A DNA stretch of 64,000 nucleotides from an uncultured Nitrospira sp. (GTDB lineage Bacteria > Nitrospirota > Nitrospiria > Nitrospirales > Nitrospiraceae): assembly GCA_902500775.1 (NCBI GenBank), contig CABVRZ010000022.1:1-64000 (forward strand), in the 5' to 3' direction. The stretch's first letter is position 1; every line of letters starts with the position of its first letter. The notes beneath the pieces are model-generated. The model worked only from the letters and a program-made list of their open reading frames with translations. It had not been told where the DNA came from and searched no databases. This document shows, piece by piece, positions 28,569 through 34,010 of the stretch. A program made the translations under genes and the position numbers.

Positions 28569-30512
28569 ATGACCTCTCACTTATTCAAGCCTTCCGCACC
28601 ACTTCAGAACCTTGAAATCGACACCGCGCTTCATGCGATTCTCCGTGGCACCGCGACTGAGACGGGACAGGGCTTCTTTGCCGCGCTCGTTCAAAATCTC
28701 GCCAAGGCCCTCGGGACACATGGTGCGTGGGTCACGGAGTATCTTCCCGAAACACGTCGATTGCGGGCGCTCGCTTTCTGGATGGACGGTCAGTGGATTA
28801 CGAATTATGAGATGGATCTTGCCGGAACTCCCTGCGAACGCGTGATCGATACTGCGAAGCTGGTGCATTTTCCCGATCGTCTCCTGGATATCTTTCCTCA
28901 GGAGGAGGGATTAAGGGCCGCGGGGGTTGTCAGTTATATGGGCGTCCCCCTGCAAGATACGGATGGACAGGTTCTCGGTCATATGGCTGTCATCGATCGA
29001 CATTCGACTCCCGAAGAACCTCGTATCCATTCGATATTTCAGATCTTTGCGGCACGGGCCGCGGCGGAATTACAACGATTGCGCGCTGAAGCTCAGGTGC
29101 GCGAGCGTGAGGAGAAAGTCAGTCGGCTTCTCAGCAATGCGATGGATGCGATCATCGAGCTGGATCACCAGTTCCACATCACACGCGTGAACCCTGCGAC
29201 CGAAAAGACATTTCGCTGTCATGCGGAACAGATGCTCGGGCAGGACTTTCGATATTTTGTGTGTCCTGAAGATGCCGACCGGCTGATCGCGCTGACTGAA
29301 GAATTGGACAGACGTCCAGAGGGACAGCGATCACTGTGGATTTCCGGAGGGCTCACGGCTCGTTACCCTGAAGGCCACTCATTTCCTGCCGAGGCAACGT
29401 TGTCTCGTTTTGAGTTGCATCGGCAAACATTCACAACTCTGATTCTTCGCAATATCAATGATCGGGTGAAGGCAGAGGAAAAGATCCAGTCGTTGACAGC
29501 TGAAACGGAACTGTTGCGAGAGGAATTACAGGTGCTCCATCAGGACGGTGCCTTGCTCGGTGAGAGTCCGGCGTTGCAACGGGTGCTTCAGGATATTGCA
29601 CAAGTTGCGAAGACCGATGCGACGGTGCTGATCACCGGAGAAACGGGCACCGGCAAGGAACTTGTGGCTCGCGCCGTCCATGCGGCCAGCACTCGACGGG
29701 AACAGCCGTTGGTTACTATCAATTGTGCTGCGATCCCAGCGACACTCATCGAAAGCGAGCTGTTCGGCCATGAAGCAGGTGCTTTTACCGGAGCAACCAA
29801 GAAACGCGAAGGTCGATTTTCTCTTGCCGATAACGGGACTATTTTTCTCGACGAAATCGGCGAATTGCCGCTTGAATTACAGGTGAAATTGCTCCGTGTG
29901 CTGCAAGAAGGCGAGTTTGACCCGATCGGCAGTTCGAAGACCAGGAACGTGAACGTGCGGGTTCTGGCAGCGACCAATCGAGATCTTGCCGCGGCAATCA
30001 CGCAGGACACGTTCCGCGAGGACCTCTACTACCGGTTGAATGTGTTTCCGATCCGGCTGCCGCCGCTACGCGAACGTGGCGACGATGTGGTGCGTCTTGC
30101 CTCCGCCTTTGCTCAACGGTTTGCCGCGAAGATGAGACGGACACTTGCGTCTTTGACTGCCGATGATGCTCGTCGACTGCAAGCCTATCAGTGGCCGGGG
30201 AACGTTCGAGAGCTTCAAAACGTGATTGAACGGGCCGTGATCACGGCAGAGGCCGGCAAACTGAACTTCGATCGAGCCTTGCCGGAGATGCCTTCGGTGT
30301 ACCGGTTTTCAGCGATTGGAACCCCTGCTGTTCCGGGCACCATTCTTTCGGCAAAGGAACTCGAAGAACTGGAACGGACCAACATGATGAGAGCCCTTGA
30401 GACCGCACAGTGGAAAGTATCCGGTGAACAGGGTGCGGCGTCATTACTCGGACTCAACGCATCAACGCTTTCGTCTCGCATGAAAGTGTTGAAGATTCAG
30501 AAACCCCGCTGA
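28569..30512 (+). CDS. Sigma-54-dependent transcriptional activator with GAF and PAS sensors
   Basis: 647-residue enhancer-binding protein. Order: GAF domain (about 30-175), PAS domain (about 195-305), a short coiled linker (to about 330), AAA+ domain with Walker A GETGTGKE (about 357) and sigma-54 contact loop GAFTGA (about 404), Walker B FLDEIG, and a Fis-type helix-turn-helix at the C-terminus (about 605-645). The activator has no receiver domain, so it responds to a small molecule or redox cue through GAF/PAS. A -24/-12 promoter and a palindromic upstream element follow directly, so the SnoaL-MBL-methyltransferase operon is its probable target. Confidence 0.92.
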   Translation: MTSHLFKPSAPLQNLEIDTALHAILRGTATETGQGFFAALVQNLAKALGTHGAWVTEYLPETRRLRALAFWMDGQWITNYEMDLAGTPCERVIDTAKLVHFPDRLLDIFPQEEGLRAAGVVSYMGVPLQDTDGQVLGHMAVIDRHSTPEEPRIHSIFQIFAARAAAELQRLRAEAQVREREEKVSRLLSNAMDAIIELDHQFHITRVNPATEKTFRCHAEQMLGQDFRYFVCPEDADRLIALTEELDRRPEGQRSLWISGGLTARYPEGHSFPAEATLSRFELHRQTFTTLILRNINDRVKAEEKIQSLTAETELLREELQVLHQDGALLGESPALQRVLQDIAQVAKTDATVLITGETGTGKELVARAVHAASTRREQPLVTINCAAIPATLIESELFGHEAGAFTGATKKREGRFSLADNGTIFLDEIGELPLELQVKLLRVLQEGEFDPIGSSKTRNVNVRVLAATNRDLAAAITQDTFREDLYYRLNVFPIRLPPLRERGDDVVRLASAFAQRFAAKMRRTLASLTADDARRLQAYQWPGNVRELQNVIERAVITAEAGKLNFDRALPEMPSVYRFSAIGTPAVPGTILSAKELEELERTNMMRALETAQWKVSGEQGAASLLGLNASTLSSRMKVLKIQKPR

Positions 30513-30579
30513 ACCAGCTGGTTGGTTCTCTCTGGTACTTCGCGCAGTTGATCTGGGTTTACGATATCTTACAAATCCT

Positions 30580-30614
30580 CTCACGAGATTTCACGAGTCG
30601 TGAGATTTCGTGAG
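30580..30614. promoter_or_regulatory. Palindromic upstream activating sequence with four half-sites
   Basis: Half-site TCACGA at 30581-30586 and 30591-30596, then its inverse TCGTGA at 30598-30603 and 30608-30613. Copies on each arm are 10 bp apart, one helical turn, and the whole is symmetric around base 30597. It lies about 107 bp before the expected start site of the downstream sigma-54 promoter, the position expected for an enhancer-binding protein. Confidence 0.7.
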
Positions 30615-30677
30615 TCGCTCAGCTTTTCTTTCCGTTACAACCTACTGATATTCCGTCAATCGGTAGTGCTTCCACTC

Positions 30678-30693
30678 TGGCATCAATGCTGCT
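30678..30693 (+). promoter_or_regulatory. Sigma-54 (-24/-12) promoter
   Basis: TGGCATC-AATG-CTGCT at 30678-30693: GG at 30679-30680 and GC at 30691-30692, which is the canonical spacing of the consensus TGGCAYR-N4-TTGCW. Start site expected near 30704, 39 nt before the ATG at 30743. Together with the palindrome upstream and the activator gene next door this is a well-supported call. Confidence 0.75.
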
Positions 30694-30742
30694 GTGTCAT
30701 CGAGTACAACCCTAGAGCAAGGCAGTAGATGAGGAGGACACG

Positions 30743-31153
30743 ATGACACAAGACCGAATGTCTCAGCTTCGTGACTTTGCGATTCGATACACAGCCGCGT
30801 GGTGCAGCCGGGATGCGGCCAGCGTCTCAACATTCTTTGCACCGAGTGGTTCGCTTACGATTAACGGCGGCATTCCGTCGGTAGGTCCAAGCGCCATTAT
30901 GAAGGCCGCGCAGGGGTTCATGACCGCCTTTCCTGATCTCAATATTGAGATGGATGATCTGGTCGAGAAGCAGGGCAGGATACTCTATCAATGGACCCTT
31001 GAAGGTACGCACCGTGAAACCGGCGGGCGCGTGCGCATCAGTGGATTCGAATCGTGGCGTATCGGGGCAGACGGCTTAATCGACGAATCACTTGGGAACT
31101 TCGACGCGACGGATTTTGAGCGCCAGATCACGCAGGGGAGACTCACATCATGA
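30743..31153 (+). CDS. SnoaL-like/ester cyclase NTF2-fold protein
   Basis: 136-residue NTF2-like polyketide-cyclase/SnoaL family protein, small alpha+beta barrel. Motifs: IRYTAAWCSRDAASVSTFFAPSG at the N-terminus and GFESWRIGADGLIDES at the C-terminus. GAGGAGG lies 5 nt before the ATG. First gene of an operon whose second gene overlaps by ATGA. Enzymatic activity in this family ranges from cyclases and isomerases to ligand binding; the substrate is not evident. Confidence 0.78.
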   Translation: MTQDRMSQLRDFAIRYTAAWCSRDAASVSTFFAPSGSLTINGGIPSVGPSAIMKAAQGFMTAFPDLNIEMDDLVEKQGRILYQWTLEGTHRETGGRVRISGFESWRIGADGLIDESLGNFDATDFERQITQGRLTS

Positions 31154-31923
31154 AACTCACTCAGATCCGTAATGCCACGCTCAAAGTCGAATATGCCGGG
31201 AAGAAATTCCTGATCGACCCGATGTTGTCGGATAAAGGGGGCTTTCCTGGTTTCCCAGGCACGCCCAATAGTCACGTCGCGAATCCCACAGTCGATCTCC
31301 CCTTGCCCATGAGCGAGATTCTTGCGGTCGATGCCGTGATCGTTACCCATACCCATCAGGATCACTGGGATGACGCTGCCAAATCGGCTATTCCCAAAGA
31401 CATGACGATCTTCACTCAGAATAGTCGAGATCAGTGGGATCTGCAGATGTCATGGTTCCGCAACACGCGGGCGCTTGAGGAGCGGAACGAATTTGATGGC
31501 ATCACCCTGATCAAGACTCCTGGCCAACATGGTCGAGGTGAGATTCTGGAAGGACTCATGGGAGATATTCTGGGAGATGTGTGCGGCATCGTGTTCCAAC
31601 ATCCGAGTGAGAAAACGCTGTATCTCGCCGGTGACACGGTGTGGTTTAAGGGCGTTGAGCAGACGCTTGAACAGTACAAACCGGATGTGATTATTCTCAA
31701 TAGCGGCGACGCCAGAGTGCTTCCGAATGAATCGATCATTATGGGGAAGGAGGATCTCTACGAAGTGTATAAAGCTGCTCCCTTGGCAACCATCATCTCG
31801 AGTCACATGGAGGCAGTCAACCATGCCACGCTGTCGCGAAAGGATCTGCGAGCTTTTCTCTTCAAACAGGAAATGATCTCGCGTGTGCTGGTTCCTGAGG
31901 ACGGCGAGTCTTACAGCTTTTGA
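31150..31923 (+). CDS. Metallo-beta-lactamase-fold hydrolase
   Basis: 257-residue MBL-fold protein. Metal motif HTHQDHWDD (HxHxDH) and later GDTVW, and His in SSHMEAVNH. The family is broad (UlaG, lactonase, phosphodiesterase-like). Second gene of the operon, ATGA overlap with the first. The tail of the gene ends just before a GTG-started methyltransferase gene. Substrate unknown. Confidence 0.85.
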   Translation: MKLTQIRNATLKVEYAGKKFLIDPMLSDKGGFPGFPGTPNSHVANPTVDLPLPMSEILAVDAVIVTHTHQDHWDDAAKSAIPKDMTIFTQNSRDQWDLQMSWFRNTRALEERNEFDGITLIKTPGQHGRGEILEGLMGDILGDVCGIVFQHPSEKTLYLAGDTVWFKGVEQTLEQYKPDVIILNSGDARVLPNESIIMGKEDLYEVYKAAPLATIISSHMEAVNHATLSRKDLRAFLFKQEMISRVLVPEDGESYSF

Positions 31924-31934
31924 GAGGTTGCTCA

Positions 31935-32747
31935 GTGAATAATCCCATCGAACATGATTACGCTCCAGTCTGTGACCTGTATGACCAGCATCTCGGGCCG
32001 GTTTTATTTGAACCATATGCCATCGATCTTGCACGACGCGTGGCGAGCTGTACGGAAGGGCCTGTGCTGGAGATGGCCTGCGGTACCGGAATCGTCACTC
32101 AACAGCTGCGCACCCATCTCAAGCCGTCTGTCTCGCTGACTGCAACCGACATCAATCCAGGCATGCTGGACTATGCACGCAGGAAACTGAACGGTGTGTC
32201 AGGAATTGACTGGCGCCAGGCAGACATCGCGGATCTTCCCTTTCCGGATGGGGCCTTTCAGGCCGCCGTCTGTCAGTTCGGACTGATGTTCGTGCCGGAT
32301 AAAGATCGGGCGTTCCGAGCCATGCGGCGGGTGCTGACCGACGGCGGCCTGCTAGCACTGAGCCTGTGGGATCGGATGGAAACGAATCCGTGGGGTGTCA
32401 TCGTGCACGAGACGGTTGCGAAGTTCTTCCCTGATAACCCGCCACAGTTTTTCACAGCACCTTTTAACTCTGCGGATCATGACCGCTTGCAGAAATTGTT
32501 GAATGCCCATGGATTCGATCAGATCGATATCCAGACCGTTCCGATGGAGTGCCACAGCAGCTCGGCTAGGTCACTGGCCATCGGAATGATTGAAGGCGCT
32601 CCGATCCTCGCAGAAATTCAAGAACGTGGAGGGATTCCTGAGCCTATCGTCAAGGCAGTGGCAGCCGCCTATGCTCGACTCGGTGGAGACCGTCCGTTTC
32701 GTTCCACGATGCAAGCGATTGTGATCACAGCGCGGGCGAGAATGTGA
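31935..32747 (+). CDS. Class I SAM-dependent methyltransferase
   Basis: 270-residue methyltransferase with the SAM-binding motif VLEMACGTGIVT near residue 43 and ATDINPGML. The GTG start at 31935 is chosen because GAGAGG lies 8 nt upstream; a TTG in frame at 31920 is less likely. Third gene of the sigma-54-controlled operon, 11 bases after the MBL gene. Acceptor unknown; a small-molecule methyltransferase of the UbiE/methyltransferase-11 kind. Confidence 0.85.
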   Translation: MNNPIEHDYAPVCDLYDQHLGPVLFEPYAIDLARRVASCTEGPVLEMACGTGIVTQQLRTHLKPSVSLTATDINPGMLDYARRKLNGVSGIDWRQADIADLPFPDGAFQAAVCQFGLMFVPDKDRAFRAMRRVLTDGGLLALSLWDRMETNPWGVIVHETVAKFFPDNPPQFFTAPFNSADHDRLQKLLNAHGFDQIDIQTVPMECHSSSARSLAIGMIEGAPILAEIQERGGIPEPIVKAVAAAYARLGGDRPFRSTMQAIVITARARM

Positions 32748-32957: not shown

Positions 32958-34010
32958 ATGAGTACACATGTGTTTCGTCTATCTCGCCTGATGGCACTCC
33001 TCCTACTTGCTCTCGCGCCTTCCATGACACATGCGATGTCCGGCATGGACATGCCCCACAGCGGACATGGGAAGGAGACGACCGCGCTCTCGAAAAATAT
33101 GGAAGGTCCCATCAATACATCCGACTCAGAAATGGAGCTGACCTACAGTGCCGATGGGAACACGGTCATCTTCGTCTCAGGACGTCAAGGGAGCATTCCC
33201 TCCCCAGGCGTTCCATACCACTTTGATATCTGGATGTCTCACAAAGTGAATAATGTGTGGCAAGCTCCGATTCACTTGGGACCGGGCATTGACCCGAAGG
33301 TAGGCCCGAATATTAATACCTCGGCCTGGGAGCTTGAACCGAGTCTGTCGGACGACGGCAACGTGATCTATTTCACGCGCTATCAGCCTGGCAACCTCTC
33401 GACGGGCGACCTCTATGTCACACAGAAAATCAACGGAGCTTGGCAACCGGCGAGAAACTGGAACGATGTGCCGGAACTTCCGCACCTCAATACCCCGACC
33501 GGTGAGGAACACTGCCCAATCATTGCGTCTGACAGCCTCATTTACTTTAACTATCAACAGCCCGGTGTCACGCAAGACAGCGACATCTGGAAGGTTGAGA
33601 AGAAAGATGGGGTCTGGCAGAAACCAGAGAGCCTGGGGCCACGCATCAATTCGCCCTATCGCGACCACATGCACTGGACCGGCCTGTCAAAGGACGGGAA
33701 GAGCCTCATCGTCACCAGTACGCGTCCGGACATGGGCTCGCGGGGAGGACATGATATGTGGATCGCCTACCAGAATCCAAAAGGCGAATGGCAGGAGCCC
33801 TTGAATCTCGGCGATACGATCAACACAGCCGGGGAAGACATGTGCTGGGCCTTTTCACCGGACGGCAAGAAAATGCATGGGAGCGGTGGGCCGCTCGGCA
33901 GCTACAATCATGACGTGATGTGGCTCAACAAAGACGATATCCCCTTGTTGAAGAATTTCGAGCCGATCGGGCCACCCCCAAACCTACTGAAGAGCGTTAA
34001 GGGGAAATAA
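32958..34010 (+). CDS. Exported PD40-type beta-propeller protein
   Basis: 350 residues: signal peptide to about residue 26 (ending MTHAMS), a Met/His-rich mature N-terminus MSGMDMPHSGHG like copper-handling proteins, then repeats of the form D-G-N-V-I-Y-F (PD40/WD40-like, TolB superfamily). Recurrent blocks are YSADGNTVIFVSGRQ, LSDDGNVIYFTRYQ, SDSLIYFNYQ, LSKDGKSLIVTSTR and FSPDGKKMHG. Ribosome site GGAGG. Probably a periplasmic propeller protein; function unknown. Its promoter region holds 11-nt direct repeats. Confidence 0.8.
   Translation: MSTHVFRLSRLMALLLLALAPSMTHAMSGMDMPHSGHGKETTALSKNMEGPINTSDSEMELTYSADGNTVIFVSGRQGSIPSPGVPYHFDIWMSHKVNNVWQAPIHLGPGIDPKVGPNINTSAWELEPSLSDDGNVIYFTRYQPGNLSTGDLYVTQKINGAWQPARNWNDVPELPHLNTPTGEEHCPIIASDSLIYFNYQQPGVTQDSDIWKVEKKDGVWQKPESLGPRINSPYRDHMHWTGLSKDGKSLIVTSTRPDMGSRGGHDMWIAYQNPKGEWQEPLNLGDTINTAGEDMCWAFSPDGKKMHGSGGPLGSYNHDVMWLNKDDIPLLKNFEPIGPPPNLLKSVKGK

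Follow-up and report, generated by a model that had tools for sequence, protein, structure and literature searches.

A predicted three-dyad enhancer module linked to a GAF-PAS sigma-54 activator and a SaxA-like hydrolase operon in Nitrospira

Among the described systems that most resemble the locus presented here is NorR/norVW of Escherichia coli, where a GAF-regulated sigma-54 activator likewise lies beside its target; three enhancer sites scaffold the active NorR oligomer (PMC2941729). GAF and AAA+ domains combined with a putative Fis-type HTH are shared with FhlA-type (type Ib) bEBPs with GAF/PAS sensors, a class that Francke and colleagues have described (PMC3162934). On the side of the target genes, the sax genes of Pseudomonas and Pectobacterium are comparable in that a SaxA-like hydrolase (51% identity) is encoded here and RND efflux appears under the same predicted control in relatives. 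The mddA/mddH/mddM system of methanethiol and sulfide methylation is comparable in that MddA equivalogs are cargo of the module in relatives. From each of these systems the locus also differs. Unlike NorR, the activator falls below the NorR cut-off, carries an added PAS domain and is accompanied by another dyad sequence and by no NO-related cargo. It also scores below the FhlA cut-off (356 vs. 830), and its cargo points to detoxification, whereas that of FhlA belongs to formate metabolism. In contrast to the sax genes, which have SaxC, a sigma-54 activator is present, the host is a nitrifier, and most loci contain OsmC instead of SaxA; unlike the mdd system, this genome is without MddA. A literature search for a sigma-54 activator of mddA/mddH/mddM found no description, and neither did a search for this regulon, for a link of OsmC with a sigma-54 enhancer-binding protein, or for one of SaxA with OsmC. 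The activator is uncharacterised; the module adds to a known kind of system and is not a new kind.

The locus was studied in a 64,000-nucleotide stretch of DNA from an uncultured Nitrospira sp. (the window). The following features were assigned:

28569..30512, plus strand: activator, a GAF-PAS-AAA+(sigma-54)-HTH enhancer-binding protein, 647 aa, GAFTGA motif intact
30559..30574, no strand: dyad I (predicted enhancer), TTACGATATCTTACAA, degenerate here; consensus TYRCGAAATYTCRYAA; 1.34 bits/column, 26 orthologues
30581..30596, no strand: dyad II (predicted enhancer), TCACGAGATTTCACGA; consensus TCRTGAGATTTCAYGA; 1.59 bits/column, 26 orthologues
30598..30613, no strand: dyad III (predicted enhancer), TCGTGAGATTTCGTGA; consensus TYnTGARATCTCRYGA; 1.34 bits/column, 26 orthologues
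30638..30650, minus strand: IHF-like site in the enhancer-promoter interval, CAACCTACTGATA; YAANNNNTTGATW with 1 mismatch
30677..30693, plus strand: predicted sigma-54 -24/-12 promoter, CTGGCATCAATGCTGCT, exact GG-N10-GC; expected start near 30704
30731..30737, plus strand: RBS GAGGAGG of the SnoaL gene, found by reading the sequence, 5 bp ahead of the ATG at 30743
30743..31153, plus strand: SnoaL-like/ketosteroid-isomerase-fold protein, 136 aa; SnoaL_2 1.1e-14, SnoaL 5.2e-14
31150..31923, plus strand: metallo-beta-lactamase-fold (MBL) hydrolase, SaxA-like (isothiocyanate hydrolase family), 257 aa
31935..32747, plus strand: UbiE-type SAM-dependent methyltransferase, 270 aa; Methyltransf_25 1.5e-22, Ubie_methyltran 2.1e-18

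The predicted sites, their fixed spacing, the linkage to the activator and the promoter are borne out by comparison across relatives, and the module is larger and more widespread than the initial annotation of this DNA described. We propose that dimers of the GAF-PAS activator would bind the three 16-bp dyads and assemble there into a ring, which would contact the sigma-54 polymerase at the -24/-12 box through DNA looping, possibly aided by an IHF-type bend. Once the signal is sensed, ATP hydrolysis would open the promoter of the SnoaL/SaxA-like hydrolase/methyltransferase operon. For dimer binding, hexamer, looping and ATP-driven opening we rely on what is typical of the bEBP family; dimer binding to three dyads, ring formation and the open complex probably follow by analogy with NorR. 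The probability of such a one-activator, sigma-54-dependent stress switch is put at about 0.9. That the activator and the cis-module control this particular operon is nearly as probable: the initial annotation had already read the element as the probable means by which the activator governs the adjoining operon, and orthologue conservation, the co-occurrence of dyads and activator, and extra copies of the module all argue for it. For an activator that is uncharacterised, candidate binding sites, a promoter and a regulon are thus defined from sequence alone, and the module offers a direct handle on the chemical stress sensed by the activator.

The three genes behind the promoter overlap or nearly touch, as noticed before: the SnoaL and MBL genes share 4 bp, and the methyltransferase gene begins at 31935 with a GTG that suits homologues better than the TTG at 31920. 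The MBL protein aligned over its full length with the SaxA structure 6BRM (E 2.7e-87, 51% identity over 259 columns), including the metal-binding motifs THTHxDHWD, GQHG, AGDTVW, and SHME-NH. On the basis of full-length MBL-fold similarity and these motifs, it was placed in the SaxA family, with isothiocyanate hydrolysis as a prediction only. The solved structure nearest to the methyltransferase is 5jgj (E 1.2e-13). SnoaL proteins and UbiE-type methyltransferases are broad superfamilies, and UbiE membership tells little about the substrate; the UbiE family also holds thiol methyltransferases, for example, MddH (PMC12904073). In the window and at many orthologous loci, the next gene after that of the methyltransferase encodes a WD40-like (PD40) protein (32958-34010 in the window); its co-transcription is uncertain because of a 210-bp gap. 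An Rfam search yielded tRNAs only.

Over 58 activator loci, the cargo comprised OsmC (42), an uncharacterised membrane protein (26), matches to the MddA query (16), methyltransferases (13), SaxA-like proteins (12), SnoaL (11), and RND efflux (3). OsmC is the commonest partner, and OsmC-MddA is found in one family. Four representative MddA proteins from relatives reached 349.5, 368.7, 342.5, and 356 bits, above the cut-off of 270 of the NCBIfam equivalog NF045656. Mapping the cargo types onto the activator tree required 13 changes; with a constant promoter and changing cargo, the module clearly illustrates natural rewiring through the exchange of genes. The OsmC gene is usually preceded by that of the membrane protein counted above, as the first gene (L042 and others); this protein has approximately 150 aa, starts with a conserved LGWWYW motif and matched no family in Pfam or NCBIfam.

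Neither OsmC nor MddA was detected elsewhere in this genome, so that the chemical theme rests on relatives and on the SaxA-like gene. The substrate had initially been described as not known. The SaxA-like MBL together with OsmC, MddA, and RND efflux in relatives makes the chemistry less obscure than that, although the substrate itself can still only be deduced. Judged by the cargo, the chance is about even that the operon belongs to a defence which is induced to counter electrophiles or reactive thiols, with organosulfur compounds (such as isothiocyanates or methanethiol) or accompanying peroxides as candidates. Somewhat more tentatively, the loci may together represent an undescribed, phylum-crossing sigma-54 regulon, in which the three-enhancer module is constant, the genes behind it are exchanged, and nitrifiers are inducibly defended against isothiocyanates or volatile thiols. 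If this theme is true, exposure to organosulfur compounds or isothiocyanates (crucifer residues, soil fumigants, volatile thiols) would be tied to gene control in a nitrite oxidiser, and the defence would be directed against compounds that could otherwise inhibit nitrification.

Two narrower versions of this explanation were weighed. In one, the regulon would mainly answer sulfide or methanethiol, or oxidative stress linked to them, and MddA would be replaced in this genome by the UbiE-type methyltransferase. MddA is a frequent partner, and in locus L216 this methanethiol S-methyltransferase is the first gene directly after the module; moreover, H2S, MeSH or peroxide raises the transcript levels of mddA, mddH, and mddM, and the MddH enzyme belongs to the UbiE family (PMC12904073). 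However, MddA is missing from the genome under study and UbiE-family membership barely informs on the substrate, which leaves this version unlikely. A further step down in likelihood is a regulon that mainly answers isothiocyanates in the manner of the sax genes, through a SaxA-like hydrolase or RND efflux, with OsmC and methyltransferase in support. The 51% identity of the MBL to SaxA 6brm favors it, since SaxA subfamilies with only 44.9% mutual identity are still active (PMC7036374), as do the RND pumps in the Pseudomonas sax set (PMC12903958), given that RND operons bear the module in relatives. The low share of SaxA-like genes (12 of the 58 loci) and the prevalence of OsmC, in one family as OsmC-MddA, speak against it, and SaxA possibly serves other purposes (PMC7036374).

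The broader reading, a sigma-54-dependent stress switch, depends on the properties of the activator. Its translation contains AGAFTGA, the mark of an AAA+ sigma-54 interaction domain with a GAFTGA loop, as expected of a bEBP, and Pfam matches were obtained to Sigma54_activat (PF00158; 7.6e-75, 250.7 bits), GAF (8.9e-11), and PAS_4 (3.2e-08). The C-terminal HTH_8 match (PF02954) was just below the cut-off (20.9 vs. 22 bits); this region is 58-82% identical among orthologues. Within the GAF domain, Cys89 and His138 are invariant across 31 sequences. A structure model of the GAF-PAS part was confident (pLDDT 84) and, in a fold search, resembled many sensor folds (FixL, DhaR, phytochromes), whereas a PDB sequence search with the same part gave zero matches; consequently, no ligand is indicated for the sensor. 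FhlA (NF011958) was matched with 356.1 bits against a cut-off of 830. The best NCBIfam match was the NorR family (NF003451), which, together with the shared architecture of a GAF-regulated bEBP and three enhancers, could point to a nitric-oxide response of the NorR type in a nitrifier. The match, however, stays below its cut-off (370.6 vs. 476 bits) and begins only at residue 296, outside the sensor, the activator has a PAS domain, and the cargo of the 58 loci is without NO reductase or flavorubredoxin. A nitric-oxide response is thus very improbable.

The proposed targets of the activator are three 16-bp dyads (TYRYGARATYTCRYRA; common consensus TYRYGA-RATY-TCRYRA) starting at 30559, 30581, and 30598, which form the cis-module together with the IHF-like site and the -24/-12 promoter. 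The half-sites TCACGA (30581-30586, 30591-30596) and TCGTGA (30598-30603, 30608-30613) with their symmetry centre at 30597 had been reported initially and were found as described. The reported 10-bp steps hold for the outer pairs, but the one in the middle measures 7 bp. The palindromic element itself is real, but according to the alignment of orthologues, the predicted enhancer consists of three dyads and not of one palindrome. The weaker dyad I had been overlooked, because it is degenerate in this genome, and so had the IHF-like site. Relative to the expected start, dyads I, II, and III are located at about -137, -115, and -98, within the range of sigma-54 upstream activators (-80 to -150), and dyad III is 80 bp from the -24 box. 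The core palindrome TCACGANTCGTGA has a single exact occurrence in the 4.53-Mb genome; the longer element had no second match in the whole genome with up to 3 mismatches, and no other good site was found in this genome with the enhancer and promoter patterns. A different sequence, TCACCAGTCGTGA, is repeated near contig ends of the same genome (e.g., C7:28, C37:27, C45:30, C75:28) and probably marks the border of a repeated insertion element.

Among 79 genomes of the genus, 28 contained an orthologue of the activator (73-96% identical). The stretch after the activator stop codon was aligned for 26 Nitrospira loci, in which the background amounted to 0.44 bits/column just upstream of the dyads, while the spacer and the downstream part gave 0.65 and 0.72, respectively; as these loci are related, column conservation is not fully independent. 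The start-to-start distance was 22 bp from dyad I to dyad II in 25 of the 26 orthologues (21 bp in the single exception) and 17 bp from dyad II to dyad III in all 26, and the distance from dyad III to the -24 box varied from 80 to 85 bp. Orthologous loci that bear the activator thus retain the palindromes and the -24/-12 box, and this also applies to other genera and phyla. In three genomes, the whole module is present in additional copies, which are situated at a distance of 5-12 kb and precede operons for HlyD-RND or membrane proteins. The activator and the module of L055 are parted by an insertion element, and the module stays with the SnoaL-MBL-methyltransferase operon. Downstream of the activator stop codon of L035 (4391-7000), small antitoxin-like, PemK-like, and serine-recombinase-like genes are situated near the operon, which suggests mobile DNA.

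Since dyads by themselves do not name the binding protein, a different transcription factor could occupy them, the adjacency of the activator being coincidental. Paired dyads were detected in 24 of the 79 Nitrospira genomes (0 with reversed-pattern controls). All 24 have the activator, compared with 28 of 79 overall; it is intact in 23 and broken, just upstream of the dyads, in one (G043), and the association has a Fisher p of 4e-14 with the broken copy counted as absent. In addition, activator, dyads, and -24/-12 box recur jointly in several phyla with differing cargo, and the distance between enhancer and promoter fits the expectation for a bEBP. The involvement of another factor is therefore very improbable. 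In the G043 locus (L176), frame changes disrupt both the activator gene and the OsmC gene, as a result of either decay or assembly error, and the dyads and promoter are intact.

Beyond the genus, 11 of the 56 genera in the Nitrospira class have the activator, with the module at most of these loci. In Binatota and Myxococcota (L071, L072, L074), activators of approximately 60% identity are associated with three dyads spaced by 22 and 17 bp, and the -24/-12 box follows dyad III at a distance of 81-82 bp; the genes behind encode an AurF-like protein, OsmC, an acetyltransferase, and a methyltransferase. When the fixed spacing was scored, most loci had mismatch totals of 0-7, compared with a minimum of 18 in 1,080 shuffles. 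Loci with totals of 9-15 have a dyad that is either weak or offset; L035-L037, L055, L073, L192, and L198 have a weak dyad III or I, and dyad I departs from the 22-bp rule in the order-level relatives L207-L215. Two loci failed the score on account of their sites: in L204, the site is too near the end of the scanned stretch, and in L077, the dyads are spaced by 21 and 18 bp. The latter locus belongs to Bacteroidota. It encodes an activator with a cyclic-nucleotide-binding-like N-terminus in place of GAF; its three dyads, which are of a similar kind, and a GG-N10-GC box precede an OsmC gene. From these features, the locus is read as the same DNA-binding code with another sensor.

The least probable reading is that the 35-bp palindrome, which is located 70-100 bp past the activator stop codon and could form a 16-pair RNA stem, serves the activator gene as an RNA hairpin, either a terminator or a processing signal, and is not a protein-binding enhancer: there is no T-run directly behind it, no terminator was called there, dyad I lies outside the hairpin and is equally conserved, the spacing is retained across phyla, the module also precedes operons without an activator gene upstream, and it remains with the operon in L055 despite the insertion element. 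The terminator reading was rejected on account of the extra copies, L055, and the missing terminator call; the extra copies and L055, together with the co-occurrence of dyads and activator, also make chance adjacency unlikely.

The promoter of the proposed sigma-54 switch was found where it had been annotated, with exact GG/GC spacing, and the genome encodes RpoN (430.8 bits, cut-off 277), as a sigma-54 promoter demands. No sigma-70-like promoter was found ahead of the SnoaL gene. The box CTGGCATCAATGCTGCT deviates from the textbook -24/-12 consensus at 3 positions, and a scan of the window allowing 3 mismatches gave 104 matches, not significantly more than the approximately 99 in shuffles. 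As this many matches of equal quality are expected by chance, the box alone is weak evidence. The stricter form YTGGCAYSNNNNYTGCW, a pattern picked after the site was seen, occurred once (0.09 expected). The significance of promoter and dyads comes from the comparison across relatives: the box reached 1.64 bits/column over 26 orthologues, and TGGC, TGC, and their spacing are retained in other phyla.

Between enhancer and promoter, a patch resembles the E. coli IHF site in reverse-complement orientation. With up to 1 mismatch, it was present in 12 of 29 loci, mostly at the same place (shuffles: mean 0.70, maximum 4). The genome has 5 genes of the HU/IHF family. Because the loci are related and a family search cannot separate IHF from HU, the IHF-like site is suggestive only. 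In several loci (e.g., L046, L041, L050), a loose inverted repeat covers the -12 region and the expected start; it reads TCGATGCTG...CAGCATCGA in L046 and is possibly the site of a second regulator.
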